Origin: Paratrimastix pyriformis
Lineage: Eukaryota; Preaxostyla; Paratrimastigidae
NCBI GenBank assembly: GCA_027972325.1
Contig: JAPMOS010000019.1
Location: forward strand, 186,001 to 250,000
Length of the DNA: 64,000 nucleotides
Direction of reading: 5' to 3'
In this document: in pieces, positions 23,259 to 64,000 of the stretch
Position numbering within the stretch: the first letter of the stretch is position 1
Layout: the number at the start of each line of letters is the position of its first letter
The notes under the pieces: model-generated
Seen by the model: the letters and a program-made list of their open reading frames with translations, nothing else
The model's database searches: none
Told to the model about the DNA's origin: nothing
Made by a program: the position numbers and the translations under genes

Positions 23259-23731
23259 CTACGGATGCTGATGGGCGGAGTCGAGGAGGAGGAGGGAGCC
23301 GTACATCTCCAGGCCCGACAGCACCAGGCAGTGGTCCCCGCCGGGGTTGGGGCCGGTCATCAGCACTCGGAAGCGGCGGGCCGGGAATGCCCGGTGGGGG
23401 ACCACGGCGAAGGTGGCCCTGGCATCGGCACGGGCGGGGATGGCGCGGCGGTCCTTGGTGTGCTCGTCCAGGGTCCGCCAGCTGGCATCACTGCCGTCCA
23501 CCGAGCCCTCCAGCCGCCACGACTGCAGCCGATACTCCACATCAGAAGAAAGATCACTATGGCGGAGGGTAGCGTGTGGGCGTGAAGAGGCGCTCCGCAC
23601 CCAGGTCAACCTGCCACCACGAGGGCGAGGGGTTGCTGTAGGTGCAGCTGTGGCATGGCTGGCGCCCCGTGAGATCGGAGGCCTTCCCGTAGCCCTCGGA
23701 TGTGCGGGTGGCCGTGACCCAGCCAGCCTCG
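23259..23731 (-). pseudogene. 3' half of a discoidin domain (T-family), separated from its gene
   Basis: Begins mid-domain at EAGWVTATRTSEG and continues WWQVDLGAERLFTP ... YRLQSWRLEGSVDG ... LSGLEMYG to a TAG at 23,261-23,259. The missing first half (through TQPWQNPA) is exactly what ends at 63,932 on the other strand. The sequence fused in front of it (from 23,732) is an armadillo repeat in another frame. A 2-base deletion relative to paralogues near 23,570 (CGCTACCCTC against CGCTACACCCTC) also breaks the frame. Confidence 0.8.
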
Positions 23732-25314
23732 ATTGGTCGCCAGGAGGCCGATGGCCGCGAAGAGGAGCCCGGCCGTCTCGTGGTCGCTGGTGGGCAGGTC
23801 GGGCTTGGCGGCGGTGAGCAGCCTGGCCAGCGCGGCAACAGCCCCGGCGCGCCCCAACACAACTTTCTCCTCGGCAGGGGCCCCACGAACCAAGCAAGTC
23901 ATCTCATAGAGGACAATCGCGGTGCAGGGGGCCGCCAGGAGGGCATCGGCAGGGGCGGCGCTCAGGCAGGCGACCATCGACAGCATCTTCTGAAAGGAGG
24001 CGTTCCGATCCAAGGCAGGTGACGCTCCGGGCAGGCGGGTGTCTGGTCGGAGATGAGACGGGTTGTGAAGGCGGAGCGGGACAGACCCTCCGCCGACACA
24101 GCGGCTGCTGCTTGTTGCGGCGCAGCAGCGTGTGGCTGCTCCTGTCGTTGTTTTTTCAGCTCCTGTTGCTCCTTCTGATGAGGCTCCTTCTGAGGCTCCT
24201 TCTGAGGCTCCTTCTGAGGCTCCTTCTGAGGCTCCATCGGCTCATGCTTCTGTTGTTCCCTCTGCTTCTGCTTCTGCTTCTTGGCCTTCTTCCGATCGGC
24301 CTTGGCGGCTGTGGGCGGCAGGGGCCGCAGGGGCACCTGGAGCACCACCGGATGGGCCAGGCTGGCCCGCAGGAGCGCGTGCAGCGACTCGGCGCTGTCC
24401 ACCAGGCCTGCGAATGGCGGTATTGCGGGGAGGGTGGGATGAATGGGAGTGGGGGTGGGGGGTGGGGGTGGGGGTGGGGGGGGGGGGGGGGGGGGTGGAT
24501 GAATGGATGGCAGTGGGCCAAAGCAGACCGGTGACAGCCTCGGGTGAGGCCCCGATGGCAGGGGCACCGGCGACTGAGCGCCCCTCGAACTGGGCGGCCA
24601 GCAGCCCCATGAACTCCTCCAGCCGCATCGCCTCGGCCTCATCGGGGGCGATCTCGACCGTCCGGGGCGGCAGCCCGATCGCCTCCAGCCGCAGCGTGCA
24701 CATGGCCAGTGGCGGCAGCGTACCCAGTGGCGGCGCGGGTGGTTGCTCGTTGGGTGTGGTCTCTCCGGCGCCCGTAAGTGGGGCCGCTGCTGCTGGCGCT
24801 CTGGTTGTATCCACCGGGGTTGGCGGTGACGATTTTTCTGGGGGAAGTGCAGTTTCTGGAACTCCAGTGGTTGACGCGCTTGTACGTGGTGGTGTCATCA
24901 TGGTGGCGGAAGGGACTGGGGGGGTCGCTGATTGACGATGCTGATGGATGGGGAGTAGGTCGGGAAACAAAAGGTTGACGCCCGTGCAAAAAAAGTACAT
25001 CAGCAGACCGCCGACGAAGAAAGGGTGATCTTCAAAGGAGGGAGAGGACTTTCCTGGAGATAGCCTTCCAAAGAGTCATCGCCCGCGATAGCTGACCCAT
25101 TCAAATTAATTCTCGATACATCCAAGCCAGGAGACAGACCAAATGTGTCACCGTCGCACAGGTAAGAGATTTCCATTTCCATAAGAGATTCCGGACAAAA
25201 CTCCCGTGCGATCAAAGATTTGAGCGCTTCAAACCCGGCATTTCTGGGGAACGGGACTCTCCGTTTCTTTGCGCCCTCAACCGCGAGAACGAGTGTGATA
25301 GTGTGCTCCATCAT
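23732..25314 (-). CDS. PB1 + armadillo-repeat protein D, 5' half only
   Basis: ATG at 25,314 (MMEHT) opens a PB1 domain (KKRRVPFPRNAGFEALKSL, YLCDGDTF, GTCTGT intron, AIAGDDSLEGYLQ). After a GTCTGC intron come the linker, the second beta-grasp-like module (CTLRLEAIGLPPRTVEI ... EEFMGLLAAQFEG ... GLVDSAESLHALLRAS ... VVLQVPL) and a highly charged stretch with four PQKE repeats (15-bp units at about 24,179-24,240). The first armadillo repeat is present (KVVLGRAGAVAALARLL) and the second stops at AAIGLLATN, where the sequence switches to a discoidin domain. The continuation PENITAFGRAGVVAPLV lies at 63,933 on the plus strand. As it stands the gene is truncated and would read into a frameshifted discoidin sequence. 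Confidence 0.8.
24430..24497 (-). repeat. Poly-G/GGGGGT tract in an intron of gene D
   Basis: The intron between the two halves of the beta-grasp-like module is filled with GGGGGT repeats and a long G run, as in genes B and C at the same position. Confidence 0.6.
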
Positions 25315-25646
25315 GACATGATCAGCATCGCCCGACGGGTCTGGTTGGCTGGTCCAGGATGTCATCTGTGTCATTCAGGCGACATCGACCCGCATGAGGG
25401 GGCGGGGGGCATTCGTTTCCGCTGCGTGTTTTGCTTTGTGCTTTGGTGGGAGCGGAGCGGCTTCGACGCGATTGCCGGAAAAGCGAGTGGAATGAGAGTT
25501 ATCGCGTGCACGATCCCCGTCTGTCCCCCCTCCCGTGTTCGATGCGATTGCCGTCACGTAAAAACGAATGGAATGAGCCCCGTCTGGGTCCCGTGTATTC
25601 ACAATAGCGGGACGGGTGGACCAAGCGTTGGGTTTTTGGGTTGTGT
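25315..25646. other. Intergenic region between D and the Barentsz-like gene
   Basis: Contains an imperfect direct repeat: ATTGCCGGAAAAGCGAGTGGAATGAG (about 25,470-25,496) resembles ATTGCCGTCACGTAAAAACGAATGGAATGAG (about 25,546-25,576). No gene is seen. Confidence 0.35.
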
Positions 25647-27791
25647 TTATTCATCCCGGGACGGCGAGGCAGGCGCCGGGGCGGCGGCCGTGGCTGGTGC
25701 CGCTGGGGATGGAGACTTCTCCCGACGGGCGCGGGGTGAAGCCGACCGGGACCGTGACCGCGACCGGGAGCGAGAGTGCTTCCGGGACTGGGCGGGGGAG
25801 GCCTCCGGGGGGGTGGCGATGGTCGCGGCCGGGGGATGGCTGCTGGGGGTGGCGGGGCGGCGGGTGCTGTGGTGGCCGCCTCGGGTGGGGGCGGGGCGGG
25901 GGCTGGGTGATGTCGACCGGGGGCGACGAGGGCAGGGGCGGTGGGGAGGCGGCGGCGAACCGCTGCGGCCGGGGCTGGGGGGGGGGGGGGGGGGGGGGGT
26001 CACGGGAGGGATGGGGTGGGAGAGGGGTGGATGGAAGGGAAATCAGATGAGTCGGCGGAAGGGCGCAGGGGCGGTGCGAAAGGTGGCAATGAGGGTCCGT
26101 GATGTGGCCCGGGGCATGTCCACAGGGCAAAACGAATCGGCGGGCATGCGGCGGTCGGTGTGCGCGCGTGATGTGTGACGGCTCAGATGGGGCGGGAAGT
26201 CGGCATCCCAGAGGGGATCGGGTGGTGGTGGTGGTGGTGGTGGTGGTGGTGGTGGTGGTGGTGGTGGTGGTGGTGGTGGTGGTGGTGGTGGTGGTGGTGG
26301 TGGTGGTGGTGGTGGTGGTGGTGGTGGTGGTGGTGGTGGTGGTGGTGGCGGCGGACAAGAAAAAAATGTGCGCCCGTGTGCCCCCTGCTGGGCTTGGGCG
26401 GGGTGCCGTGGGAAGGGGAAGGGGGAAGTGGATGGGGCTGGGGCGCCGGTCGAGACCTTGGGCTGCGTGGGGCCCGCAGGGGCGACCCGGGCTGGGCCTG
26501 CTGCTTGTCGCCCGCCTCGGGCCCGTCGTCCCTCTTGGGGGCTGCCCCCTCGGGCTTATCCTGGGTCAGCCTGCGCATGGCCTCATCCACCCGGCGGTTA
26601 TCACCCCCCCGGGGGGCACCGCCCTGCCAGGGGCCGCCCCGGCCCCCGCGCCACAGGCCCCGCCCGCGACCGGCGAACCGGCCCCGGGGGACCTCGGCCC
26701 CGTAGCCGCCCATGCCGCCCCGCCCGGCGGAGTATTCGCGGGGTGGAGGACGGCGCCGCGGGGGGCTCTCGGGCCGGGCGTCGGGGTCGAAGAGGTCGTG
26801 CTGCCACTGGGGGGAGGAAGAGGTGGCGGGGGCGGGGGCGGGGGCAGGGGCAGCAGGCGCCGACTCGTCGGAGGGGGCCGGGGCGGGGGCGGCGGGGGCG
26901 GGTGGTGGGGCCGGGGCTCGGGAGGCGGGGCCGGCGTAGTTTGGGTTGGCTGTACGAGAGGGGTCGATGGATGGACGGCAGTGGCGGGGGGTGGATGAGG
27001 CGGGTGAGGTGGATGAGGTGGGTGGGTGTGGAGGGGAGAGGATCGCCAGCCCACCCTCCCCACACCCACCCACCCACCCCCTCCGCGGGGCCCAGGCAGC
27101 ACAGTGGGCATGGGGCGGACATTCGCGGGTGTCGTGTTCGAAGAATGCCGCCGAGCGGGGCACGTACGTGGGGTCGATCTCCTGCCGGAGGACCACACGC
27201 GGTGGCGGACCCCCGGACGACCGCGGCTCCTCAAAGCGGCCGCCCCAGCGCCGATCTTGCTCGGGGGGAGGTGGGCTATCATGACGACCCAAGAAGAAAA
27301 CGAAGAGAGCCGTGAAATGCACGATCAAAAAGGCCGCCGCCAGACCGGTTGCTGAAGGGCCGGTTGTCGTACCGAACGTCGCGATCGCCATGCATGCCGC
27401 GATATAAGCCAGGAGGCGGAGGTGGCCGCACCCCACCCCGGGGGCCCGCAGGGCCATCCCTTCTCAAACCTGGAGAACGTTCGTCCCTTCCCTCGCGGAA
27501 GCGAATGGGAGGGGGAGGGGGAGGCCGTCGATAGTCGCCGTGCCCGCCAGAGGAACCCTTACTGCCATGCGAGTCGCGCACCTCGCGGTGGTCATGCGAG
27601 TCGTAATGGTGACCTTCGTGATGACGTTCCTCGGATCTGTGAGAGTGTGTGTCACGCTCGTCGCGCCGAGCGGGCGAATGTCGTCTCGGGGGGCTCCTAA
27701 TTTCAAGAGATTTGAACCAAGTGTACAATTTAGACCCAAGAGTGTGAATGAGCTGATCCCAGAACCAGGCCATGCCTACAGACCGATGCAT
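25647..27791 (-). CDS. Barentsz/CASC3-like exon-junction protein with RS tail
   Basis: The predicted first coding exon is tiny: ATG CAT CG at 27,791, then a GTCTGT intron ending in AAATTAG, giving MHRSPPRRHSPARRDE. An Arg/Ser/His-rich N-part follows. After a GTCTGG intron comes EQDRRWGGRFEE, then DPTYVPRSAAFFEHDTRE, the first half of the Btz/SELOR motif (P-x-Y-I/V-P-R-x-x-x-F-F-E-H-D-x-R). A GTCCGC intron and an Ala/Pro linker lead to SSPQWQHDLFDPD, the second half (W-x-H-D-x-F), then Arg/Gly repeats. The C-terminus is an RS domain (HSRSRSRSRSRSASPRARR) stopping at TAA 25,649-25,647. CASC3/Barentsz holds eIF4A3 and RNA in the exon junction complex, acting in mRNA transport and decay. The identification rests on the two short motifs. 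A (TGG)n tract occupies a likely intron at 26,222-26,347. Confidence 0.6.
26222..26347 (+). repeat. (GGT)42 triplet repeat
   Basis: About 42 uninterrupted GGT/TGG units. On the coding (minus) strand they read ACC/CAC/CCA and probably lie within an intron starting GTCCGCC just upstream. If exonic they would encode poly-His, poly-Thr or poly-Pro. Confidence 0.85.
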
Positions 27792-28819
27792 CAAGAGCCT
27801 TCCTAAAATGTCTCTTCTTCCCGTGGTCAACTCAACTGTCCCCGGCTCGAACGCCTCAGCTTTCAGATGAGCTATTTCGCTGCGGCTCCAACAGGGCACA
27901 TTCCTCAGCACCTGTCATCTATTTTTTCGTGTTTCTCTGACCGTTCAGTTTGCTGTTCGGGCTTCTTTTGCCCATGTTTCATGATTTCAAAGACTGCTGA
28001 GGTTGGTGACTTTTCAACACCTTTCCATTTAAATCATTGCACATATAAACCGCTTCTTCCCATTAGCGCATCTCCGGGAAGCCAAATTGTGCCGTTTGTT
28101 TCGGGTCATGTCTTTGCCTCCCCTGTTTTTCGCTGTGGGAGCGCGGACTGGTTCGGGAAAAGTACGGTCTTCAAGAACAGGTTTGTAGTGGGCTTTTTGA
28201 CCTCCCACGTCTCCACGGTGCGCTGGTTCGAATAGTGTTGTGCTGATTTTCTTGCTGCCTTCTGCTGCTCACCTTGTTCCGTTTGCCAAGGTCTCGGATC
28301 GGGTGGTACGTTTGATGTGGTTCCATTTTTGCTTTCGCTTTCCAGAATTCCGCGAAGTCGAGCTGCGATCGAGGCAACAAACGTACACCTCAGGGACCGT
28401 CCAAAACTTCGCAGCGATGGGTCTCCAGCTCAAAAAATGAACGGGTCGACAATAACACATCGAAAGCAACTTTTCGCGAAGTTTCTCGCACGGTGGACAA
28501 TTTCCACCCCTGATTTTCGCGGTTCTTTTTTCTTTTTTGCGGGCAATGTTCTTTCCTCTCCGAAGCCCTCCGTTCTCTTTGTTTTCCGCGCATGTATCCA
28601 TACTTCGGGGGTTGTCCGAATTGATTGTGTTTTGTTTCTCTTGATTAGAGTGCGTATTATCATGGTCCGGACCCCCCGAACGACGCAGAACACTTGGGAC
28701 ACCAACTCCACAAAACAACACCGCACGCTAAGCCGTTTGTACATTGTGCGTGCTCCTCGACCCCAAACCCGGCCTTTGGCACTTCCCAGAGGGGGATCGC
28801 GACCTTTTTGATACCAGGG
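27792..28819. promoter_or_regulatory. Divergent intergenic region, A/T-richer
   Basis: About 1 kb between the Barentsz-like gene (-) and the flavodoxin-ferredoxin gene (+). Composition drops markedly from the surrounding GC level, with T-rich stretches such as TTCTTTTTTC. No coding region is convincing. It should hold both promoters. Confidence 0.4.
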
Positions 28820-30707
28820 ATGAGCAAGCAGGTTCTTCTGGTCCATTGCTCGTTGACCGGCAATACCCAGCACGTCGCCCTTGTCTTGAAGCAAGTTCTC
28901 GAAGCCCATGGATTTTCCTGCGTTCTCCATGACCTCATTCCCCTCATTCGAGGCATTTCTCTTCGGTCCGAGGCCGAGCCCTTGGCCGAGCTGACCCGAA
29001 AGTGCGATGCAGCAGATGTCATTGGATTGGGGACATTGGTTGACGGCCTGGCTCCTTTCCCCAAATTTTGCAAGGCAATCTCTGCCCTCCCCAAACGGGC
29101 GTTGCAAGGGAAACCCTCTTTTATCTTCACGACTTTCGGGAATATTGAAGGGTGGGCTTCCGCAACCGTGGTGAACTGTTTGAAGAAAATGGGTTCTCGC
29201 CCGTTGATGGCCTTGCCCGTTCGATGCCCCGAGAATTTCATCCCCCTGCAGGCCATCGTTCCCGATGTCTGTGCGTCCCTGCTTCATCACCTCTAAACAA
29301 CATGGAAATCTCGATGGCATGTCATTATGACGCCACTAGCGGGACTACTTTGACGCAGGGCAGGAGACCCGGGTTCGGCAGTTCGCCGAGAAGCTGTCGG
29401 CTGTGCTGGGGAGCGAGCCGTCATCATGGCCCCAGGTGGAGCTGGCCTTGTGGAAGCGCGTCCTGGCCCGGATCGGCTGGAGCTCCTGCGTCAGCGTCGT
29501 CCCCCGTCCGCCCTTTTTGTGTGTGTGTGTGTTTTGCTCTGGTCTTACTCGCCTGGCCGCCCACTCTGTCATCTTGCCACCTTACAATCACCCCGACTCT
29601 GTCCGTGGATTGGAGGGCTTTTCCCACGTGTGGCTGTCCTTCATCTTCCACGAAACTCTGGTGCGCGGCTGGCATCCTCTGGTTCGCCCCCCTCTTGGAG
29701 GCAACGCACACACACGCACGCGCACCTTGACTTGACTGGCGCGGGCAGTCATCGGGCCCATTCGGATCGACCCGGCCAAGTGCATCCACTGCGGGGCCTG
29801 CGTCCGGCTGTGCCCCTTCGGGGCCCTCGAGAAGTGCCCCGACATCGGTCCGACCTGCCCCACACGCCCTCTGTGACCCACATGCCCCCCATCATGCCCC
29901 CCATGCCCCCATGCCCACACGCCCTCCATGCCACTTGGCCACACACACCCATCAAGCGGGGCATGAGGTAAGGGCAGATGCATGTGTGGGCTTTCATCGT
30001 CATCTCATCTCCCGGTATCCCTCCCCCATCCCACGCGCCCAACCCTCCCCCGACCCCACCCAGAGAACACCCCTGCCGGGCCGCCGCAGTATCACATGCT
30101 GCGGTGCAAGGGCTGCACCCGGTGCCTGAACCGCTGCCCCGCCCAGGCCATCTCCATCCCCGTCTGGCGCTCGCAGTCCCGCCAGCAGTCCGTCTCGCAC
30201 CCCCCCAAGCCGCCCCAGCATCCCGGCCTTCCTCCTCGGCATATTATTCGGAACGGCGTCCCCCGGGGGCAGCCCCAGACAAAGCGCTTCGGCTGGGTCT
30301 GGGGGGTGGTGGATCGCCGACAGGCCATCGACATCCACGGCCCTGGCGCTCGCAGCGACCCAACCACCTGCGGGTTCCCCTCCCATTTTGTTGGATGGCC
30401 ATTGGATGGGCGGTGCTTTTCCCGCTCCGCGACACCCGGATCATCCCCGGGATGATGCGGGCTAGGTGGCCTTGGACCCCCCATTCACTGTCACGCTCCC
30501 CCCCCCCCCCCCCCCCCGTGGGTTGGTGCTGCCTGGCGTGGGGGCAGGTACACCTTCACGGAGGTGCGGCCCCAGGGGCTGCCCCACCCGCTGCGTGAGA
30601 TTGCCCGGGTGCGGCACGTCGCCCCCCGGGTGCTGCTGACCCTGGCCGCCCTGGTGGTCATCCTCGTCGGGATCGCCCTCCGGCTGCTGCGCGCCAGGCG
30701 GGTGTAA
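28820..30707 (+). CDS. Flavodoxin - 2x[4Fe-4S] ferredoxin, tail-anchored
   Basis: Five exons. Exon 1 (ATG 28,820) is a flavodoxin-like domain: [17 protein letters not shown] is the FMN phosphate loop (S-x-T-G-N-T). A GTCTGT intron (29,267-29,339) joins IVPD to [26 protein letters not shown] intron precedes the first cluster, [27 protein letters not shown] intron with acceptor CACCCAG precedes the second, [25 protein letters not shown] intron joins SRQQ to [15 protein letters not shown], and the protein ends with a hydrophobic segment ([17 protein letters not shown]) followed by RARRV and TAA at 30,705-30,707. The EFR1-type fusion of flavodoxin with bacterial-type ferredoxin is found in anaerobic bacteria and protists as an electron carrier. 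The C-terminal anchor suggests an ER or organelle membrane site; partners are unknown. Confidence 0.82.
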
Positions 30708-31445
30708 CCCCTGGTGCGGATGTAACCCCTGGTGCGGGTAACCCCTGGACGCGGATGTAACCCCGGGTGCTGCTGACCCTGATCGCCCTCATCGGCCTCC
30801 GGCTGCTGCGCGCCAGGCGGGTGTCACCCCCTCAGCGGCCTCGTGGGGCATCGTCCTCCGGCTGCTTGGCATGCGCTGTGGCACCCCAACCCTGGTGGGG
30901 ATCGCCCCCCCGGGTGCTGCCTCCCGTCCTGGGCATTGTCCGTTGGATGGCTGCCCTGTGCTGGATGTAACCCTTGGCGTGCGGATGGAACCCCACCCGG
31001 GGTGATACCTCGATCCGCCATCATCACCCCGCCCATATGTGCTGTGTCTCTTCGACTGCCCTGGTTTTTTTCTCTTCCCGTAGTGGCTCCGACTCCCTCC
31101 CTCGGGAGTGGCCACAGCCACACAGACTACCTTCTCTGCTTCTGTACAACACACTGCACCCCCTCCCCCCAACGCCCTTCCCCCTGCCTCGCTGGTTCCT
31201 CTTCGCCCTTCGCCCCGCTGCGGCCCCGTGTTCGCTGCTGGCGTCTTTGGACCCCCTCGGACCGGTCGCATCCCCTGCCCATCCCCATCCCATCCCCCCC
31301 CCCCCCCCCCCCCTCATCATCCCATCCCCCTCCATCCCATCGTCATGGCATGCCGTTCTCTGATGTGCGTCTGTGTATTCGGAAGGGCAGAGGCCGATTC
31401 TGATTCTCTTCCAGCACCAGGGGGCCCAGCAGGGGATGGAAACTG
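30708..31445. other. Intergenic region with copies of the preceding gene's 3' end
   Basis: Directly after the stop, parts of the final exon recur: GTGCTGCTGACCCTGATCG through CTGCGCGCCAGGCGGGTG at about 30,767-30,824 repeats the anchor-coding segment, and several copies of GGATGTAACCCCTGG follow the stop. The rest is T/C-rich with a C run at about 31,295. No gene is seen. Confidence 0.5.
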
Positions 31446-32576
31446 CTACTGATGGGCGGAGTCGCGGAGGGAGCCGTACATCTCCAGGCCCGCCAGGATG
31501 AGGTAGTGGTACCCGTTGGGGCTGGGGCCGGTCATCAGCACCCGGAAGCGGCGGGCCGGGAATGCCCGTTCGGGGGCCACGGCGAAGGTGGCCATGGCAT
31601 CGTCGCGGGCGGGGATGGCGTTGGGCTCGTTGGTGTGCTCGTCCAGGGTCCGCCAGCTGCCATCAGCCCCGTCCACCGAGCCCTCCAGCCGCCACGACTG
31701 CAATCGAAGCTCTACATCTTCAGGGTTGTCGTTGTGGCGGAGGGTGTAGCGGGTGGGGGAAAAAAGGCGCTCCGCACCCAGGTCAACCTGCCACCACGAG
31801 TTGGGCTCGTCCTCGGTCGAGCTGTCGCATGGCCGGCGCCCCGTGAGATCAGAGGCCTTCCCGTCGAACTCGGGTGAGCGGGTGGCCGTGACCCAGCCAG
31901 CCTCGGCCGGGTTGCGCCAGGGCTGGGTGCGGCCCTGGGTGCCGATGTAGTAGAACAGGCCCCGCTCGTCCATGTCGTGGTCGTACGTGAACACAAGCCC
32001 TAGTGGAGATGAGTGAGAGCGCCGGGCATGGCCGGAGAGACAGACAGCCGGGATGGATGCAGGTGGCGGTGGCGGGACTGCTCTCAACCAGGCCCCGCAT
32101 GGCCACGGCCACAAAGCGGGCCTCGGCGGCATACTGGGGGAAGCGGTACCGGCAGTGGCAATCAGGACCCATGTAGACAAGGCTGCTGCTGGAATGGCCA
32201 TCAGCCACAATGGTGGCCTGCACCCGGTAGTGGACGGGGGGGCCCGGTGGCGGCGGGTCGGCGGCGGCCAGGGCACAGCAGGCGGCAGCAGGGTCGCCCA
32301 CGGCGGCCCCTGCACAGATGCCGGGCGCCGGCTGCCAGTCGAGGGCAACTTCTTTCGTGGCCTCGTCCCAGCGGGCCGCCAGGCCCTCGGGGGCAGCCGG
32401 CGTGATGAACAGCTGGCGCGAGAACAGCAACAAAGACGGATGGACGGGGAGATGAGGGCAGGTGGGCACGACGAGGACCGATGAGACGGCAAACCAGGAG
32501 CCCCCCCCCCCCCCCCCCCCCACCCCTACCACTACCACTACCACTACCACTACCACTACCACTACCATTACCACCT

Positions 32577-32608
<32 letters not shown>

Positions 32609-53000: not shown

Positions 53001-54918
53001 ACGGTCCCTCTGTAGAAAAGGTTATCAGCAAGGATGGCCGAGCGGTCCAAGGCGCCAGTTTAAGGTACTGGTATCTTCGGATGCGTGGGTTCGAACCCCA
53101 CTCCTTGCAAATGTTTTTTTCTCATTCTCTCTTCCAGTAATCTGCTCTCGAGCCGGGGCGGGGGGCTGCTGGTCTCGGCGCTGGAGGTCAACCGGGAGCT
53201 GGTCGAGTGCGACATCACCCTGTCTGCCTCACCCCTGCCTCCCTGCCCCTCTTCTTGGAACCCGCCCATGATGACTTTTGGTGGGGGGGCCGTTCCAGTC
53301 CCAACAGCACTCATCCACTTGCTCAGTTTTGGCTCAAGAGAGACCTCAAATTCCCAAATATTCCTCCCGCACCAAAAAAAAAATCACCTTGCGTCCACCT
53401 CCCCATTTTTTGCGCCTTCCCCCCCCCCCCCCCCCCCCTCGCATGAAACGCAGCAACGAGGTGGACGAGGGCCGCCAGGATGCCCTCGAGCGTGGCCTGC
53501 AGCGCAACCGGCGTGACCAGGGGCTGCCCCCCGACGACCCCCCGCCCACCGAGGAGGAGGACGTCATGCTCGCCTGCAGCCCCGAGCCGCCCCCCAGCCC
53601 CGCCCCGGCCGACAGCCCACCGCTGGACGAGGGGCTGCAGCTGGAGGAGGGCACGAGCGGCGAGGGGGCCCCACCGCAGTGCGATGAGGCCGACGCTGGC
53701 CAGGTCTGGATGGAGGCAGGGTTTGTTCGAGGTGATGTGGTCCGGGGGTCCTCGAAAAAATTATGGGTTTTGGTGTCCCATATTGATTTTACGCACCACC
53801 GTCCTCGAAAAAAAACATATGGGTTGTGTCCCATACTTTTTTTCACCGCCGCGCTCTATTTGGGTTGGGCTGTGGTCTGTTGTATGTCGGGCCAGACGGC
53901 CGGCCTGGCGATGGAGGACGACGGCGGCCCGGCCGATGGCGAAGCCGCCCTGACGCCCCTCTTCGCACCCCACAGCCACCGGCTCACACCACACACGCCA
54001 CATACCCCGCACACACCACACACACCGCACACACCGCACACACCGCACACACCGCACTCGCCACACTCCCCGCCGCACACACCGCACACACCCCACACGC
54101 CGCACACCCCGCACGGGTCGGCGCACCCCTCGGCCTCCCCGCCCGACACGCCCACGGCCACCGGGGGCGAGGGGGCCGACCTGGGCGGCAGTTTCAGTGG
54201 GGGCGATGCCTCCCTGACCCCCGCCGGGTCCTTGCCCCCCCAGGCGGCAGGACAGTCGACATCGCCCCACCACCAGCAGCAGCCCGACACCCCAACCAGT
54301 GGCGACGCGTGCCGGGTGGATGGCGGTGGCGGTGGCGGTGGCGATGGCGGCGGCGACAGTGGATCAGCCTCGGACCCGGCCACGCCCCACTCCCCCAACG
54401 GGCGGCGGGTGGCGAACCCGACTGGGGGCAGCGGCGGCGGCAGCAGCGGTGGGTCTCCGCACCTGCTCGTGGCCGGCGGTGGCGCCCTGATCGTCGGGGG
54501 CTCGCCGAGGCTGATGGACAGGTGCGTGCTGTTGGCCCTGCCGCCCCCCACCCTCCTGCGTTTATGGCATCCCGCCATTTCATCAGTTCGCCCTCCTGGC
54601 TGCTCTCACCTTCACCTTGTTTGCTTGTCTGGCTGCACATCACCATACAGCCCGCCCGACAGCCCCCTCCCCCTCCCCCCTCATCTGCTCGCTCACTCCT
54701 TGCCCCACCATACAACCCGCCCCTACTTTACTCGCTCACAGTCCTTTCCCCCTCACCTTGTCTCGCCATCGTGCAGCCCGCCCGACAGCCCGCTCTCGCT
54801 GCCGTCCGGCCCGCCGGGGCACCCCGTGCCGCCGCCCATGCCCATCCTGGGGGTGGCCACCATGGCCGGCCTGCCGCCCATCGCCCCCGAGCCGCCCCTC
54901 TCCCCGCTGGCCCACTGA
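48967..54918 (+). CDS. Leucine-rich-repeat (ribonuclease-inhibitor type) protein, one exon per repeat
   Basis: ATG at 48,967 (MRRPAASSPLRRSF). After a disordered N-part the first repeat (LRKLLLYTNCLSNKEL) begins a chain of about twelve LRRs of NLR/RNH1 type, for example AECFAQMLARNRTLRHLDLS and ARLLADMLMRNRTLARLGLA. Nearly every intron is phase 2 and falls just before the conserved Asn of LxLSxN, with donors GTCTGA, GTCCGT, GTCAGT, GTCCGC, GTCAGG, GTCTGT, GTCTGC and acceptors CAG followed by CAAY. The C-terminal half is acidic, Pro-rich and carries (HTP)n at about 53,990-54,115, Gly and Ser tracts, and ends PEPPLSPLAH at TGA 54,916-54,918. One join (about 52,340) has no clear acceptor. Introns contain exon-edge duplications and a tRNA gene. 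Function is likely protein binding; no NACHT or TIR domain is seen. Confidence 0.75.
50041..50068 (+). repeat. Poly-G tract in LRR intron
   Basis: A run of about 28 G in the intron between LRR exons, typical of the homopolymers in this window and a likely place for length errors. Confidence 0.7.
50122..50360 (+). repeat. Three copies of an LRR exon start within its upstream intron
   Basis: GGAGCAGCA(T/C)CG...GGGCTGGGCGACC...GGGCAT occurs at about 50,122, 50,219 and 50,318. Only the last is followed by the coding sequence MEYLAGALRQNN. Confidence 0.7.
51183..51243 (+). repeat. (GGCAAA)n tract
   Basis: About ten AAAGGC/GGCAAA hexamers, preceded by (CAGCA)n at about 51,155-51,182, in an LRR intron. 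Confidence 0.8.
51933..52132 (+). repeat. 39-bp minisatellite, five copies
   Basis: Five near-identical units of CATTCCTCATGATCTCCTCC plus GTGTTCCCTGTCCCTGC in an LRR intron. There are no spacers, so it is not a CRISPR. Confidence 0.85.
53028..53109 (+). tRNA. tRNA-Leu (anticodon AAG)
   Basis: 82 nt. Acceptor stem GCAAGGA pairs with TCCTTGC, discriminator A. The D arm contains GGCCGAGCGGTCCAAGGC (A box TGGCCGAGCGG). Anticodon stem CCAGT/ACTGG encloses loop TTAAGGT with anticodon AAG. A class II variable arm follows, and the T arm GTGGG-TTCGAAC-CCCAC carries the B box GGTTCGAACCC. A T-run terminator starts within a few bases (about 53,112). The gene lies on the same strand as, and inside, an LRR-gene intron running from about 52,852 to 53,142. 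Confidence 0.92.
53110..53120 (+). terminator. Pol III T-run terminator of tRNA-Leu
   Basis: A run of seven T directly follows the tRNA 3' end (AATGTTTTTTT). Confidence 0.7.
53752..53848 (+). repeat. TTATGGG/TCCCATA inverted elements in LRR intron
   Basis: Two successive hairpin-like units: AAAAAATTATGGGTTTTGG...TCCCATATTG and AAAACATATGGGTTGTGTCCCATACTTTTT, both preceded by TCCTCGAAAAAA. They are related to the palindromes in VPS45 introns 8-10 kb away. Confidence 0.7.
53990..54118 (+). repeat. (CACACMCCG)n coding repeat (His-Thr-Pro)
   Basis: About fourteen copies of a 9-bp unit encoding PHT in the LRR protein's C-terminal half. Confidence 0.8.
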
Positions 54919-55140
54919 CCTCGGCACCACCTCCCTTGATCTCATCGCCCCCGAGCCGCCCCTCTCCCCGCTGGCCCACACCACCCCCCTTGATCTCATC
55001 GCCACCGAGCCGCCCCTCTGCTGGCCCACTGATCGGATGGGCTGACTTCCCGTCCCTGGCCCGCTCTCCGGTGGCCCTCTGACCTCAGTACCACGATCGC
55101 CCATCCGTCATCACCCGCTCCGTTGGCCCACTGATCAAGA
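54919..55140. repeat. Repeated copies of the LRR gene's 3' end
   Basis: After the stop, ATCGCCCCCGAGCCGCCCCTC-type sequence (the PEPPLSPLAH codons) recurs at about 54,948 and 55,000, each with CTGGCCCAC. These are tandem copies of the terminal coding segment. Confidence 0.65.
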
Positions 55141-55505
55141 TCATCCCCCCGCAGCTCGGTTGGTTGAGGGATCGATCAGGATCATCATCACCCGCTCCGC
55201 CTGCCAAGACGGACCAAAGCGCGGGATGTTGAACACACAAACGCCCTCCACAGAGGGGGCTTCCTTCGCCCATGGGTGCAGTGTGACATTGGTGATGTAT
55301 CTGCGACCTCTGCTTTTATTCGCCCTGTGCCTTCTTTCTTCCTCGATGACACACACACACACATCTCTTCAGCCTCTCCGCAGTTTTTTGTTTTTCCCCT
55401 CCGTTACTGCTTTCTTTCTGTTTGACACACGTACGTACACACACACACACTGACGTACCCCGAGCGAGGTTGTTCTCGGCTCGCCATGGTATCCAACGAT
55501 GGCAT
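55141..55505 (-). CDS. Small two-exon protein of unknown function
   Basis: ATG at 55,505 (MPSLDTMASREQPRSG) is joined by a GTACGT intron (containing (GT)n, acceptor AAAGCAG) to GRRYITNVTLHPWAKEA, then CVFNIPRFGPSWQAER, stopping at TGA 55,143-55,141, about 70 residues in all. The second exon has ordered, non-repetitive composition and looks genuinely coding. An alternative is that another GTGATG donor after QAER leads to further exons. I do not recognise a family. It is convergent with the LRR gene. Confidence 0.45.
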
Positions 55506-57159
55506 CGTTCAGTTGGTTTTTGTTTGGTTGCGTTCGAACTCTTTCGTTTCGTTTGATTTTTGCTCCCCACCCCAATACTCCCCTCCACAATTTTGACCCT
55601 TTTACCCCCCCCCCCCCCCCCAACCCAACCCATCCCATCCCATCCCATCCCATCCCATCCCATCCCATCCCCATTTGACCCCCGGCTACGCGGTTTGCGG
55701 GGCCCTCCGCTGGAAGGCCCCCCTCTCGATCGGGTCCTCGTGACGTCCCTGCCTGTCTGTGCTGGTGCTGTCTACGTATTTGTTCGCCCGTCTGTGCTGT
55801 CTCCTCGTCTGGGTCTGTCTGGCTCTGCTGTCTGACTGCTGGTTGCGGCTGCTGGTTGGTGAGGGTGAGTGTGACTGGGTTCGACATGGCCCGTCGGATG
55901 GTTGGGTTTGCCTTTCGACGGGCTGACTGGGCTATTTGGCAAGGCCTCCTCCTCCTCCTCCCTCCCTCCCTCCATCCCCCCTCCCTCCCCCTCCCTCCCC
56001 CCCCGCTCATCTTTTTCTTTTAATCCTGTTGCGCGAGGCGGTGCTTGCCGGATTCTCGTCCCTTCCGACGAGCTGTCCCTCAACACCTCTCCTCCAGCAA
56101 TTTATTCGTGTTCATTTTTGTTTTCCGTCTCCCTCCTCCCATCAGATCAAGAGATGGCACCCGCTCCAACCCAATCAATGAACACACTCGAGCGGGCACG
56201 CCAGAGATAGTCGATGTATTCTGGCTCGACCCGCAGGCACAGGCAAAACGAGATTGTTACTCGGCCAGGCCTTTGCGGGGCAGTCCATCAGAGGGTAGTC
56301 GCTGGCCAGGATCAAATGACCCAAGGTGATGGTGGACAGCGGCCCTCCGGCCTCTTGGGCCGTTGGGGAGGAGGGAGGGAGGAAGAGGAGGAGGGAGGGA
56401 GGGAGGAGGGAGGGAGGAGGAGGGAGGGATGCGGAATGTAATGTCGGGGCCGAGGGCCATGGCTCGGGAGCTGTTGGAACGCAAGATGGGGTCCTACAGA
56501 CCTCTTGAAATGGTGCTGCCGGGCCTGGAATTGTATGACCCTCTTTCGCGTTTAGTCCATTCCCACCTGCTTGAAGACCCGATGCGGACCTTGTGCCTGA
56601 GAGGGATGGAGGGAGGAGGGACCAGCATTGGCGGCGATCGGAGAGGGTTTCCCACGGAACGTGACGCAAAGTAGGAGTCACATCTCTTCGTCTGCGTCAC
56701 TCTGTCCCGACGACTCCGGACAAACAGACAGATGCGTGACCAGCTCTGGCGCATCAAAAGAGGACTTTCAGAAAAAATGGTGAATGGGTTCTCCTTCATC
56801 AGTTTCCCGCACCAAAATGGTGCTGCTGTCGAGACAGAGGGTGTATAGACTGAGTCCATACACCCTCTGTGTCGAGACGTGGCATGATCACACCAGAATC
56901 ACCGGGGCCCGAAATCCCAGTGCGAGAAAACACAAGCGAAATGGATCCAAGAATGGTCTGGGCAATTATTGGAAATTTAGGCAATTTTGCCAACTGTTTT
57001 GTTTTTTCTTCTGTGTTTGTCCGAACACAAGCAGCCCAAAAATGTCATCACCACGCCTTCCCCTTCGGGGGGCATCATGCGCGCCCCAACACACGTCACC
57101 AGGTCTGGCAGTGACGCGTGAGCATCTCAGACAGTTCTCGCGATCTTAGGCCACAAGTG
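55506..57159. other. Region without a settled gene model
   Basis: Holds a (CCCAT)n tract (55,629-55,672), a minus-strand frame at about 55,887-55,690 (MSNPVTLTLTNQQ), GGGA/CCCT tracts, and a minus-strand segment at about 56,720-56,230 with a possible GTCTGT donor near 56,507 and a peptide LILASDYPLMDCPAKAWP. A strong inverted repeat lies at 56,828-56,879. Some exons are probably real but I cannot join them into one gene. Confidence 0.35.
56828..56879. repeat. Near-perfect inverted repeat (hairpin)
   Basis: ACAGAGGGTGTATAGACT and AGTCCATACACCCTCTGT are complementary but for one base and meet almost without a loop; the outer GTCGAGAC sequences extend the symmetry imperfectly. Confidence 0.75.
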
Positions 57160-57689
57160 ATGGGGAACACTTCTGCGATCGCCGCGACCGGCCCAGCGCC
57201 CGCCCCGGCGTCCGCCCCGGCGTCCGCTCCCACACCCGCCGCCCTCCCGCGCCCGGTCATCATTGGCCCTGTCTCTCCCGCGCCTGGCTCCGTTCCGTTT
57301 GGCCCCTTCCCTCCCGGTCCTGTCGGGCTTCTCCCTGACGGCTCCGGCTCTGTCCCTGACGGCTTCGACTCTGTCCCTGTCCCGGCGAGCAACGTCAACG
57401 GAGCGCCCGGTGCCGTTGGCAGTTGGTCTGCTTTCTTCTGTTGCCTTGTGGGTGAGAATTCATGCTGCCCGTGATCCCTTGAATCACCCGCCGCCCTCCT
57501 TCTCCGACGATCATCCCGTCTTTCCACGCCCGCCCCCACGGGCCATCATCATCATCCATCATCCAAGCATCGTCGTCGTCGTCGTCCTCCAGTCATCATC
57601 CAATCATCATCATCAATCATCATCATCCAATCATCATCATCAATCATCATCAGCCAATCATCGTCATCATCCAATCATCGTCATCATCC

Positions 57690-57732
<43 letters not shown>

Positions 57733-58903
57733 GTCGTCGTCATCATCATCATCATCATCAGCATCATCATCCAATCATCATCATCCAATCATCATCATCC
57801 AATCATCATCATCCAATCATCATCATCAGCATCACCTGCTTCAGCCTTTCCGCATCGTCCCATGTTTCAAGCAGCAGCATCGTCATCATCCAATCACCAT
57901 CAAATCATCATCCCGATCCTCCATGATCACATGCGGACGGTCGGATTGTAGGACCACCGAAGAAGAGGTTGCGATGGTGCGCGCGCCTGCAACGGCTGCC
58001 GCGATGGCCTCCGCAACATACCTGTCCGTTCAGCCATCTCCCCCGTTCTTCCAGCCATCCCCACCGTTCTTCCGCCTTTCCAGCCATCCCCCCCGTTCTT
58101 CCAGCCATCCCCCCCGTTCTTCCAGCCATCCCCCCCGTTTCTTCCGCCTTTCCAGCCATCCCCCGTTCTTCCGCCTTTCCCGCCATCCCCCGTTCCCGCC
58201 TTTCCAGCCATCCCCCGTTCTTCCGCCTTTCCCGCCATCCCCCGTTCTTCCGCCTTTCCCGCCATCCCCCGTTCTTCCAGCCATCCCCTCGTTCGCCCGC
58301 CTGCTCTGACTGACGATCTCCCTCCCGCCCCCACCGGCACGTGGTGTGCTTGGTGTGACCTGAGGGCAGTCCATGGGCCCTGCAAGTGGGAAGGGCCAGC
58401 AGGGGAATGGGAATGGCCCCGTACATGGGAATGGCCCCCATGGGGATGGCCCCGTACAGGGGAATGGCCCCGTACATGATGGACCCGGACAGGGGCTTTA
58501 TGTCTGTCCTTCGATGATGATGATCGGATGATGACTGGATGACGATTGGATGATGATTGGAGGGACGGTGATGATGATTGGATGGATGATTGAATGGATG
58601 ATGATGATGGTGGTGGTGATGATGATGATGATGATGATGATGGTAGATGATTGGATGATGATTGGATGATGATTGGATGCATTGGATGATTGGATGATGA
58701 TGATGATGATCGAATGATTGGATTGAATGGTGATTGAATGATGATTGATATGATGATTGGATGATTGGATGATGATGATTGGATGATGAATTGGATGATG
58801 ATGATTGGATGATGATGATTGGATGATGATGATTGGATGATGATGATTGGATGATGATGATTGGATGATGATGATTGGATGATGATGATTGGATGATGAT
58901 GAT

Positions 58904-58939
<36 letters not shown>

Positions 58940-60964
58940 GCATGATGATGATTGCATGATGATGATTGCATGGTGATTGAATGATGATGATGATGATTGC
59001 ATGATGATTGGATGATTGCATGATTGCATGATGATTGGATGATGATGATGACGGGATGATGATTGAATGATGATTGGATGATGATTCCGTCCGTCTCCCC
59101 CGCGCCACGCCGTTTGACTGTCTCTCCTCCTCCTGATTCTCTGTCTCTCCTTCCCGACGACACCGTAGGTACTACCCCCAGGAGGCCCGGCAATTCGGAT
59201 TTGTGTCCGTCCAGCTGGCCATCCACCACCACCACCACCCCTCAATCCCCCCGTTCGCCAGCCTTTTGACCATCTCCCTCATATTCCTCCACCCCGGCAC
59301 GTGATGTGTTTTGGTCCGACGCGAGGGCAGTCAAGGGGCCCCTGTTCCGGCCCCTGCTCCGGCCGACATGATGGCATACGACTTTATGTCTGTCTCCATC
59401 TAGCCATCACCATCCCGTTCGCCCCCCTGCTTTGATGGCGTACATATGGGCTTGATCAATCGGACTTTGGCGCGACACACGCTGCTGCTGTGCGATGTGG
59501 CGAGAGCGTGAGCTGTCCATCCACACCATGTGTCGCTTTTTGTGGGCGTGGGGAAATTGGGAGGGAGGTCATCAAGGCGGTCATCAAGGCAGGGGGGCGA
59601 ATGGGATGGGGATGGCTGGAGGTGGGACGGGGGATGGCGCAACGGGGGAGAGGGAGACAGACACAAGTCTCTTTGCTCCACACACACTCACCCCCACACT
59701 CACCCCCACCCCCATTTCCGTCATGTCACTTCTCTCCACCCAGTCATCATCTCCAGGCGGAACTCGCGGCCGAGAAGCAGATAACGGAGCGCCAGAGGAT
59801 GGAGCTCGCGGCCGAGAGGAAGGAGCTCGAGGTGGTTCGCCGCAGCGAGCGCGATCAGGCGGTGCGTCTGGCCAGTACGGAAGCGCGGCTGACCTCTTCG
59901 CGCGCGCGCTATTCGGCCCTCCGTTCCCTGACCCCCCGCTCAAGAACCCCACCAGGGTCAAGTCCCAGATCTTCACCTCGACTCTCCCCAAGTCTGCTCG
60001 CCCCCCGCGGACCCGCCTTCTGCTCACTTTCCGTTTAGTTGAATCCTTTCTCAAACCTGGCGAGAAGGGGTACCATGAGCCCACCACCAGCCCATTCGTT
60101 TTGGAAACGAAGCATTCCGTGGAATCGACGGCGTTTGAAAACCTATGCGCCCACCTACTCAACAACGCCCTCGCCTCCCCCCGTTCCAACCCCTACGCAC
60201 CTTACCCCACCACAAGGACGCACTTGGCGCGCACCTTCTACGATCCCGACGATCCGGAGACCGCCCTCCGCCCCGATTTTCTCGCTCTGGTGTTTTTCCG
60301 CGAGGGCACGACGGTGCTGGACATCGCCCAGCCGGCTCCGCCTCTCCCTTCGCTCCCCGTTCTGTCCTCACCGCCCCCCGACGGCCCGCGCCCCATGTGT
60401 GCCACGCCCCCCACGGGCGTCCTGCGGCCCAACCCCGTCCACGCGAAGAAGCTCTCTCCACACGCCATAGCGATGATGGCCCCCGCACCGACCCCCCTTG
60501 CAGCCACGGCAACGAACCCAACCTCTGCCCCACCCACCTCGCCCACGGCCCCAGCCTCCGCCTCCGCCTCCGAAGCGGCCGCGTGCCAAAACTCATACGT
60601 CGTCGGTGAGTTCACCCTCGACGCCGCGACCATCCCAGAGAAAGTCTTTCAGGTGGCTCGGGGTGTCAAGGCCATTATATGCCACAAAACCCATGTATAT
60701 TACAGCCCCTATGAAGAGGTCCCGCTCTCTGATCTCATCGCCTACTGTGTGGTCGTGGTCCGCGGGCCCCTGAATGACGAGGAACGACTCCTCTTTCATG
60801 TGACAGCTCTCACGAGGGGCATGGGCGCGTATCTCGAGGCGGGCCGGTTCCGCCTGTTCCACAATCCCCCTCCTCCCAAGGAGGGCCAGGTGCAGCTACT
60901 CCTCGTCGAGGAGCATCTCTCGCCCTTCCCAGCCCCCCGCCTCCCTCCCCCTGAATTCTCCTGA
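57160..60964 (+). CDS. Coiled-coil protein of unknown family, with large repeat-filled intron
   Basis: ATG at 57,160 (MGNTSAIAATGPAPAPASAP) begins an Ala/Pro/Gly-rich exon ending GAVGS. A GTCTGC intron of about 1.74 kb ends GACACCGTAG and gives the in-frame junction SWYYPQEARQFGFVS. A GTCCAG intron joins AELAAEKQITERQRM, a charged coiled coil (EVVRRSERDQAVRLASTEAR), then a Ser/Arg/Pro tract. A GTCCCA intron ending CGTTTAG joins IESFLKPGEKGYHEPTTS, then FENLCAHLLNNAL, RPDFLALVFFREGTTVLDI, a disordered stretch, and a C-terminal ordered part (NSYVVGEFTLDAATIPEKVF, VYYSPYEEVPLSDLIAYCV) to TGA 60,962-60,964. No known domain is recognised. The two frames used either side of the last intron overlap as open frames, but only the spliced reading is continuous. 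Confidence 0.6.
57540..57835 (+). repeat. (ATC)n / CATCATCCAAT array, left arm
   Basis: Degenerate ATCATCATCCAATCATC units inside the large intron. The sequence is complementary to the array at 58,510-59,090. Confidence 0.8.
58030..58310 (+). repeat. Minisatellite of CCGTTCTTCCGCCTTTCCAG units
   Basis: About twelve variable copies of CCATCCCCCGTTCTTCC with CGCCTTTCC inserts, in the same large intron. Confidence 0.75.
58510..59090 (+). repeat. (ATG)n / ATTGGATGATG array, right arm
   Basis: Degenerate GATGATGATTGGATGATG units, the reverse complement of the left array, in the same intron. Confidence 0.8.
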
Positions 60965-61039
60965 GGAGTTGAACAAAGAGTTGACCTCTTCATGTGAGGT
61001 TGGGTCAGGGGGACTGAGCGGGCCTGCGGGTCAGAATGA

Positions 61040-61790
61040 GAGCAAGGGTAATCATCTTCATCAGCATCTCCGCGTCATCAGCATCAGTCCAATCAGCGAC
61101 ATCCTTCCATCGATGGCCCCCATGGCGTGCGCAAGCGAACCCAGTCCGCCGCCGACCGACCGGCCTTGAGACCAGTCCTTGCCCCATGCTGTGTATTTGC
61201 TAGGACGCAGGCGAAGAGAAACATTACTCCCGCCTTCGCGTCGCGCGTTACACGTTCCGATGGGGGCCCTGGGCCTAATGACCTCGTGTTGTGCCCTCCT
61301 CGGCCGGGGCAGCCGCGGCGAGCGGAGCCCCAGTGGGTGGGTGGGGGTGCCTTGTGTCAGGGGTGCGGCTCGTCGGCAGCCGCCCTGTTGCGCATGGTCA
61401 TCAGGGCCAGGGCGTCGCGCACGAGCAGGGTGGCGAGGGAGGAGAGGCACTTTTGGAGGCCCAGGCGGATCTCGGGCGGGGAGGCCGGGGTGGTCCGAGA
61501 GAGGGCCTGCAGCGTGGCCCGAGGGACGACTCCCCGCGCCGAGAGGACGACCGGGACCACACGGCAGGGTTGCCCGGTGGCCTTCGAGATCGACCGACAA
61601 AGCTCGGCGTAGTGGATGGCTTTACCCGCTGCCAGGGCGGGCCAACCCCGGCTGTCACCCCCTGTGATGGCCACGTCCACGAGCCACCAGGCGCCGTCGG
61701 GGGCCCGAGACTGCAGGACCAGGTCCGGGTGCAGGTCTCGGAGGGCCGCCGAGATTTCGTCCAGCAGGGCTTGGTTTTAAAGGGATGTTT
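61040..61790 (-). mobile_element. 5'-truncated LINE fragment with endonuclease end
   Basis: On the minus strand, LLDEISAALRDLHPDLVLQS, then WWLVDVAITGG and GKAIHYAELCRSISKATG, VVPVVLSARGVVP form the D..D..K core and tail of a restriction-like endonuclease domain as found at the end of RLE-type LINEs. Only the last 130 residues remain, ending at a stop at about 61,357. The minus-strand 3' end runs into a GATGCTGATGAC-type simple repeat (about 61,040-61,085), consistent with a microsatellite tail. The sequence is distant from LINE 1 and LINE 2, so a third lineage is indicated. Confidence 0.6.
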
Positions 61791-61988
61791 TGACCTATCA
61801 GATCAAAATGTCGTCACCAGTCCAGTCCCGTGTGTACCCAGCGTTTGAGTGCACGATTGGGAGTGGCTACGCGATATCGGGACGGCCCCGATGATCTTGC
61901 GAAAACCAATCCCAAATGACCCCCGTTTATCCCCCGCACCTGAATACCAATTGACCCATAAAACCAACCCTGCTTTTTTTGCGCTGTG

Positions 61989-63932
61989 ATGGAGAAGGCC
62001 GGTGAAGATGTTGCCGCGTCCAGCAACAGCAGCAATGACATAGGTGATAAAAACCGACGACAACCATGCCGCCCTCGGAGACAACTCGAGTACATCATCC
62101 CCGCCGGAAGAGGCGACGATGAGGGCTGGCGATGTCCAGCTGTCTGTTGTCTTGTGAACTAACTATCCACGACTCTTTTGTGATTTTTGTGGAGTAGTGT
62201 CATGCCCATTACGAAGATCCGGTGTCGTTGAGTTGCGGTCTGTTGCCGCACAACACAAGAGGCGATCGCGCCAAATTCTTGCCCGGATAGCAGGAGACGC
62301 CGTCTGTAGGGCCTGTGCAACACTCCTCGACCAAGCGTGCCCTTTATGTTCGGAGCAGCTGAAGCCCATGCCGGAGTCTGTGCCTTGTCCTGACCTTCAC
62401 CCACCGCACTTGGCATTTTTTTGGTTGATCAGGCTGATTCCCTCGCGAATGGCACGGCGCCAGGCGAGGCAGATGCAATGCCACTGCCCCAACTGTGGGC
62501 TGGGGTGCACGGCCATTATTGGTGTGCTGGATGTGGAGCATCACCTCGAGGCGGAGGGCGAGTGGGGCGAGGAGGAGTGCGAGCAGTGCCACCAGCAGGT
62601 CCGGCGGGCTGAGATGGCCCGCCACAAGGACACCACCTGCGCCCGCAAGCCGGTCTGCGACCCCTCCCTCCCTCCCCCCCTCCTCCCTCCCCTCCCCTCC
62701 CCTCCCCCCCATCCTCCTCCTCCTCCCCTCCTCCTCCCCCATCCTCTCTCCTCCCTCCATCCCTCCCCCCTCCCTCACCTCCCATCCTCCTCCCTGTGTC
62801 ACTGCTGATCGTCCATCACCATTCTCATGGCCGGGGGCCGGCGTTCGACGGGGTGCTGCTTCCCGCCCGTTTCTCTGTGCAGATGGCCTGCTGGTACGCG
62901 GCTGTGGGCTGCCCGACCAGCTGCCCGCAATGCGACCTGGCCGCCCACGAGCGGGATGGGATGGCGTCCCACATGGGCCTCCTCAGGCAATGCCTGGCCG
63001 GCACCTCGCTCGAGCTGGCCCAGACCAGGCACGAGCTCAGCCAGAGCAGGGTCGCCCAGGGTGGCACCGTTGCAGCGCTGAGCCAGACCCAGCACGACGC
63101 CCAGGCCCAGGCCCAGCTGGCCGAGCTGGCGCGGGCCAAGGAGCAGACCCAGCACGACCTGGCGGCCATTCGGTCGCAGATCGACCAGGTCCGCGCCCTC
63201 CCTCTCCAGTGGGCAAGGGTCGGGGGGTGGGGTGGGGTGGGGGGGGAAGACCACCCGTGTTGAAACCCCCCGCCTCTCCCCCCCCCCCCCCCCCCCCCCC
63301 GACAGCTGTTCATCCCGCCGGCTGCCCCCGAGGGCCTGACAGCCCACTGGGAAGGGTCCACAGGGGATGTTGCCCTCGACTGGAGGCCCGTGCCCTGGGC
63401 GGCCCCTGCTGCTCCTGCCGGCCCCGGCGCCCCTCCGCCACCTGGCCCTCCAGTCCGCTACCGGGTGCAGGCCACCCTCATGGATCCTGGCCGCGACCCG
63501 AGGAGCGGTCTGACGACGATTGTCTACACGGGCCCCGAGTGCCACTGCCGGTACCGCTTCCCCCCTGATGCCAGGGTCGAGGCCCGCTTTGTGGTGGTGG
63601 CCATGCGGGGCCTGACCGAGGGCGGCCCCTCCGCCCCCGCCAGATGCGCAGGTCCGGCTGTCCGCTGAGCACAACAATGGATCAAAATGAAAACAGTCGC
63701 AGTGGGGTGGGGCAGGACAGCCCGTGTGACATGATCCCACCCGCCCTTCCCACATTAGCGCATCCGCCAATGTGCTTCTACCCAGCACGCTCTCCTGCTT
63801 CAACGTTTCCTGCCCCCTCCCTCTCCACCCTGCCCAGCGGTTGTTCACCTATGACCACGACCTGGACGAGCAGGGCCTGTTCTACTACATCGGCACCCAG
63901 GGCCGCACCCAGCCCTGGCAAAACCCGGCCGA
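61989..63932 (+). CDS. T7: RING - TRAF - coiled coil - FN3-like, discoidin domain cut in half
   Basis: ATG at 61,989 (MEKAGEDVAASSNSS) then QPCRPRRQLEYIIPAGRG. RING after removal of two introns (donors GTCTGT and GTCTGT): CPAC-HAHYEDPVSLSCG-DAVCRAC ... CPLC. TRAF fingers (MQCHCPNCGLGCTAI, CEQCHQQVRRAEM), second finger (ACWYAAVGCPTSCPQC) and coiled coil (LAQTRHELSQSR ... QTQHDLAAIRSQID), FN3-like exon (RYRVQATLM ... GPECHCRYRFP), then the start of the discoidin domain, LFTYDHDLDEQGLFYYIGTQ through PWQNPA. At 63,932/63,933 the sequence switches to an armadillo repeat in another frame. The missing second half of the domain is at 23,731-23,259. The gene is otherwise undamaged. Confidence 0.8.
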
Positions 63933-64000
63933 CCCGAGAACATTACCGCCTTTGGACGGGCCGGGGTGGTCGCCCCGCTGGTCAGCATGCTCGTCGCGAA
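63933..64000 (+). CDS. 3' part of an armadillo-repeat gene (continuation of D), partial
   Basis: PENITAFGRAGVVAPLVSML is the middle of a PB1-armadillo family repeat and fits exactly onto AAIGLLATN, where gene D stops at 23,732. It has no promoter or start here and runs off the window. Confidence 0.75.

Follow-up and report, generated by a model that had tools for sequence, protein, structure and literature searches.

Matched armadillo-discoidin junctions in Paratrimastix pyriformis probably mark both ends of a single 40.2-kb inversion

Two coding exons in the genome of the free-living protist Paratrimastix pyriformis pass, in mid-exon, from one gene family into another. At the first site the 5' part of an armadillo gene runs into the 3' part of a discoidin gene, and at the second, 40 kb away and on the opposite strand, the 5' part of a discoidin gene runs into the remainder of an armadillo exon. 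How did these two chimeras arise, and do they belong to the chromosome or to its assembly? An earlier sequence-only reading of the locus had proposed one inversion, either real or produced by the assembler. We analysed a window of 64,000 nucleotides (the whole stretch of DNA considered here; C101:186,001-250,000, inside a contig of 647,764 bases). Genome-wide searches were performed on one assembly of one strain (56.06 Mb in 495 contigs), which is not identical in extent to the published genome of 633 scaffolds and 56.6 Mb (PMC10703272). The features of the locus are listed below, in window coordinates unless C101 is given. Domain names in Disc1, other than discoidin, were taken from database names or assigned by eye.

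20636..22864, minus strand: neighbouring discoidin-family paralog, directly behind Disc2, with an open discoidin exon
23259..23731, minus strand: Disc2, orphaned 3' part of a discoidin exon (F5/8-type C), in which a 2-bp deletion leads to a stop
23731..23732, minus strand: J1, armadillo 5' part to discoidin 3' part
23732..25365, minus strand: Arm1, 5' part of the armadillo gene; coding stretches 25365-25141 and 24838-24524 by match, about 24407-24087 and 23989-23732 with boundaries by eye
23732..63932, strand not applicable: the segment read as inverted, 40,201 bp
61989..63932, plus strand: Disc1, 5' part of a gene with RING/TRAF-type zinc finger, coiled-coil, FN3-like and discoidin regions; first part of the discoidin exon at 63,838-63,932
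63930..63932, plus strand: CGA common to both junctions; the other copy at 23,729-23,731, minus strand
63932..63933, plus strand: J2, discoidin 5' part to armadillo remainder
63933..64000, plus strand: Arm2, armadillo exon remainder, running on past the window to C101:250,949; 338 codons, open
61989..64000, plus strand: predicted fusion protein P0049, 722 aa, over J2, running on past the window to C101:250,946

Read on the minus strand, J1 sets ...CTGGCGACCAAT, which ends at 23,732, directly against CGAGGCTGGCTGG, which begins at 23,731; the armadillo exon ends in GCGACCAAT and discoidin sequence starts with CGAGGCTGG. At J2, read on the plus strand, ...AAAACCCGGCCGA ends at 63,932 and CCCGAGAACATT begins at 63,933, with discoidin sequence ending in AACCCGGCCGA and armadillo sequence starting with CCCGAGAAC. 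The letters and coordinates that the sequence-only reading gave for both junctions were correct. J1 is single in the 56-Mb assembly (exact search with an 18-mer), as is J2 (20-mer, up to 2 mismatches allowed). Reversal of the segment re-pairs all four flanks, as judged from the letters, the paralogs and the repeat phase, and the junctions are reciprocal; measured against the intact genes, each of the present chimeras shifts frame at its junction. This reciprocal anatomy, and its fit to intact paralogs, is what we observe. On sequence evidence, the best reading of J1 and J2 is that end joining produced both in a single 40.2-kb inversion, probably with a duplication of 3 bp.

The discoidin halves were compared with their family. 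The discoidin exon of a paralog matched PF00754 in Pfam (2.6e-9). The 3' half had at least 40 matches, with 40 of 74 candidates scored, and the discoidin 5' stretch at least 79, with 40 of 75 scored, so that the family size is a lower bound. Forty-four paralogs were aligned, comprising 29 that were checked letter by letter, 13 further places and copies at C101:203 and 222 kb, and 43 of them run through the break point. All 29 letter-checked paralogs do so when aligned to the joined halves; 28 are gap-free between -20 and +15 of the break, L017 being one base short there, and none has an extra codon at the break. The three-base slot is single in the gap-free paralogs and is filled by CGA in 23 of the 29 and by other letters in 6. 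Twelve of the 13 further copies, for which the partner half was absent from the match lists, also run through. The exception is L077 at C101:347.7 kb, where similarity to discoidin stops no more than about 6 bp from the break point and a CCA repeat follows. Within C101:176,001-269,000 the joined discoidin query gave 9 matches, of which 7 were continuous through the break and 2 were the halves at J1 and J2.

A paralog counted as open with 85 open bases 5' of the break and 420 open bases 3' of it, and 29 of 31 paralogs reached this threshold. Since L017 passes it yet has a one-base gap at the break, at most 28 paralogs are intact. The two paralogs that fell short, at C101:50.6 and 203.4 kb, are both without any known inversion. 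Disc2 itself carries the 2-bp deletion, with a frameshift and a stop soon after; the deletion could be a sequencing error, but if it is real it hints at decay.

The armadillo remainder matched PF00514 in Pfam (1.8e-13), and eight of nine protein matches to its part beyond the right end of the window carried the name Paratrimastix pyriformis. From window position 24,000 onwards, over the reversed join, the armadillo exon can be read in a single frame, 427 codons long, up to a stop; the repeat that spans the join has 48 residues, as has the next repeat. Motif spacings from the reversed join onwards are 48 (across the join), 48, 43, 48, 95 and 45; in nine relatives the commonest spacing is 47 (11 of 34 spacings). 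The earlier claim that this join is in frame was borne out, with the 427 codons open and in repeat phase.

We also searched for the nearest relatives of each part. For the 5' region of Arm1 (24,500-26,400), the best relative genome-wide was C101:251,506-252,341 (PAPYR_4518), at 766 bits; this match covers 859 bp and takes in an intron, and the runner-up scored 379 bits. PAPYR_4518 (C101:251,519-254,064, placed in three pieces at 100%) is a neighbour of Arm2, its start following the end of Arm2 by about 0.6 kb, and it is 40 kb away from Arm1. The same gene is picked out by two short matches upstream in Arm1 (62 and 50 bits), and bits summed over 23,732-26,400 came to 1183 for the PAPYR_4518 group versus 831, where groups may merge neighbouring genes. 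With a shorter query (23,732-25,000; 40 candidates scored), the top non-self match was C101:204,837-205,250, at 502 bits, with the PAPYR_4518 region a close second at 499 bits. The former place is 5 kb to the left of J1. For the 269-bp piece of the last Arm1 exon alone, the PAPYR_4518 group ranked fifth of seven non-self groups. The best relative of Arm2 was again PAPYR_4518, narrowly (394 versus 389 bits; 40 candidates scored). Reciprocity and inversion, as first proposed, are backed by letters, paralogs and repeat phase and, for the 5' region of Arm1, by the place of its nearest relative beside Arm2.

The pedigree of the discoidin halves is a weak guide. The best non-self match of the Disc1 stretch was the gene behind Disc2, at C101:207.1 kb (305 versus 295 bits; 40 candidates scored), and in pairwise alignments of the combined discoidin 5' stretch with 31 paralogs the neighbour at C101:206.6 kb came first (score 540 versus 524). 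A nearest paralog shared by all parts was sought and rejected: the FN3 exon and the first and second discoidin parts each had a different best match among the 31. Congruence of the similarity profiles of 5' and 3' halves across 32 genes gave no family signal, with the split gene's own half at rank 20 of 32 and the ranks of the own half over all 32 genes ranging from 1 to 31; it therefore counts neither for nor against an inversion. The next discoidin paralog behind Disc2 runs on the minus strand from 22,864 downwards, in the same orientation as Disc2, which fits a tandem array before the flip.

How might the segment have been turned? In the sequence of events that we propose, a RING/TRAF-FN3-discoidin gene would have been cut inside its discoidin exon, and an armadillo gene, 40 kb off and on the opposite strand, inside its last exon; end joining would then have put the freed 40.2-kb segment back in reverse. 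A 3-nt stagger at the discoidin break would have been filled in, leaving CGA at both junctions, and the armadillo break would have been clean. Both original genes would have been broken by this event. From the sequence, a single 40.2-kb inversion with this 3-nt fill-in is probable, and a real inversion by either of the two joining routes considered here is very probable.

The second route, which we regard as unlikely, is that the same inversion arose through a 3-bp microhomology, with CGA at both sites beforehand and no bases gained. CGA is present at both junctions, the two sites were in inverted orientation, and the reading frame would survive in an N-R-P-E-N armadillo loop. The loop sequences speak against it: in 41 armadillo-loop matches from this genome, some of which enter the count both as a protein and as a DNA frame, D or N stands before P in 21 and R before P in one, which is the junction region itself. 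The route also requires a loop length of 3, found in 4 of the 21 D/N loops, versus 12 of 21 for length 2, the commonest. These counts favour LATN-PEN over LATNR-PEN, as far as loop sequences can tell, and together with the single discoidin slot they lead us to prefer a staggered discoidin cut with a clean armadillo cut. The earlier assertion that CGA was doubled is supported on the discoidin side, where the slot is single in paralogs; on the armadillo side the repeat consensus is what speaks for it. Fill-in and microhomology are both ordinary end joining.

Inverted paralogous stretches are present near both junctions, with about 75-80% identity and one of 92% over 101 bp. The breaks do not lie in alignable register of these stretches, and recombination between repeats is therefore unsupported. 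The two break exons, discoidin and armadillo, are not copies of each other and no in-register inverted repeat was seen; the junctions are not inside homologous inverted repeats, as non-allelic homologous recombination (NAHR) would require. A mobile element at the break points was rejected on a genome-wide search with the stretches 61,300-63,300 and 24,500-26,400, in which the sole clear dispersed repeat was a copy at 61,185-61,773, which is 2.2 kb from J2.

The present arrangement could instead be an assembly error, with the reversed order on the real chromosome and 40 kb turned round by the assembler. Similar genes are numerous in the arrays and point both ways, inverted paralogs are present near both junctions, and all of our comparisons have one assembly as their basis. 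For the published P. pyriformis assembly, Canu was run on Nanopore and PacBio reads; polishing involved Illumina reads, Nanopolish and Pilon, and scaffolding also used RNA reads, with Rascaf (PMC10703272), though there is no gap at this locus: C101:176,001-269,000 contains zero Ns. The junctions, however, are out of register with the inverted paralogs. Paralogs this divergent seldom cause long-read mis-joins. Two errors would moreover need to mirror each other with single-base precision and, if CGA was formerly single, to supply three extra bases; the present sequence would then be 3 bases longer than the reversed one, and a pure assembly flip would not create these.

The reversed armadillo junction was absent from the assembly with up to 3 mismatches allowed, and the reversed discoidin pattern was found in 9 places, with 3 mismatches each, all of them known discoidin paralogs. 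Nor was a second haplotype found: among the 40 candidates scored for each of the four flanks, nothing but the locus itself matched at 100%. The recent age and possible polymorphism suggested by the sequence-only reading are conjectural. The lack of a reversed junction elsewhere, the lack of Ns and the 2-bp deletion in Disc2 favour a real inversion, as do the base-precise reciprocity and the three extra bases, if CGA was single. Between the two options left by the sequence-only reading, we infer that the organism's DNA is inverted, rather than the assembly alone; a real inversion appears likelier than an assembly flip, which we hold to be improbable. That two unrelated losses of gene tails share one contig by chance is scarcely credible: the loss of homology in L077 at nearly the same point indicates that tail loss near here does happen, but each missing part sits at the other junction, matching in register and orientation, and the best relative of the Arm1 5' region is beside Arm2.

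A protein in the database spans J2. P0049, a predicted RING/TRAF-FN3-armadillo fusion that appears to be part of the deposited annotation, takes in the discoidin gene's 5' exons and switches to the armadillo frame at an acceptor inside the discoidin exon (63,900/63,901), the armadillo-frame exon starting at 63,901; the donor of the FN3 exon is at 63,651/63,652. Its entry to the FN3-like exon is unusual, with GLTAHW where the paralog P0010 has LFTPPAAPEGL, and P0049 therefore looks computed rather than proved by RNA. The right junction may express a RING/TRAF-FN3-armadillo fusion, on the strength of this gene model. No annotated protein spanned J1 among 5 matches, the best of which was 70% identical, in a search covering lengths of 0.55 to 1.75 times the query.

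Taken as an inversion, the event is a fresh case of a known, ordinary type of chromosome rearrangement. The human polymorphic inversion HsInv0379, of 415 kb, is described as disrupting ZNF257, is attributed to non-homologous end joining, and yields a fusion transcript shown by RNA-Seq and RT-PCR (PMC4591017). The two cases would share end joining and the placing of a broken gene's 5' part beside new sequence. HsInv0379, as reported there, is polymorphic and breaks one gene, whereas the P. pyriformis segment is 40 kb and two genes are cut in coding exons; the human fused transcript was demonstrated, while the fusion in P. pyriformis is predicted from a gene model. Isochromatid and chromatid models have been described for staggered-break inversions in Drosophila (PMC6861252). 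As in those inversions, a fragment that was single before the event would be found at both break points after it. The difference is that the duplicated piece in P. pyriformis would measure only 3 bp, as filling in a simple overhang would give, and that paralogs are the ground for taking it as single beforehand. Among the papers that we searched, none treated Paratrimastix together with inversion or with discoidin.

These results indicate that, where paralog families are large, a single assembly can be enough to expose an inversion at base resolution, with no second genome for comparison. They also carry a warning, since the predicted database protein P0049 (722 aa) is a product of this junction. 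It is conceivable, although we consider it quite doubtful, that the discoidin and armadillo arrays break and rejoin repeatedly, with the NPA-E point in the discoidin exon as a weak spot (compare L077), and that the inversion gave rise to a RING/TRAF-FN3-armadillo fusion gene that is expressed and in which the armadillo half has remained open. Should such expression be real, the locus would represent domain shuffling by inversion in Preaxostyla.

The window also holds the following features.

7,780-14,716, plus strand: two long frames, each matching the reverse transcriptase family PF00078
53,028-53,109, plus strand: 82-base hit to a tRNA in Rfam, scoring 54.8 bits
61,185-61,773: one member of a high-copy repeat family, from a genome-wide sequence search

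The two reverse transcriptase frames, with PF00078 E-values of 1e-20 and 3.2e-8, lie in different reading frames. The repeat ends about 215 bp upstream of the start codon of Disc1, the 5' part of the split discoidin gene, and was found in at least 39 other genomic places at 89-96% identity (best 40 of 621 candidates scored). A minus-strand frame within it, judged by eye, is presumably similar to the endonuclease end of non-LTR retroelements. Long C runs (gene strand) were observed in introns of both split genes, at 24,451-24,495 and about 63,280-63,300, and these may be error sites in long-read assemblies.

A second discoidin-family gene, at L077:24-104 (C101:347,723-347,803, on the same contig outside the window), has lost its discoidin tail about 6 bp or less from the discoidin break point of the proposed inversion, and a long CCA repeat takes over where the discoidin homology stops. 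By eye, this gene matches P0048, a database protein that bears the name TNF receptor-associated factor 6.

The RING/TRAF-FN3-discoidin protein had 45 database matches (P0010-P0054), 44 of them labelled P. pyriformis; only P0049, the predicted 722-aa fusion over the junction at 63,932/63,933, carries no name. HECTD1 is the name given to 26 of the 45. No HECT domain (PF00632) was present among the precomputed domains, and the HECTD1 name may have been transferred via the discoidin domain.
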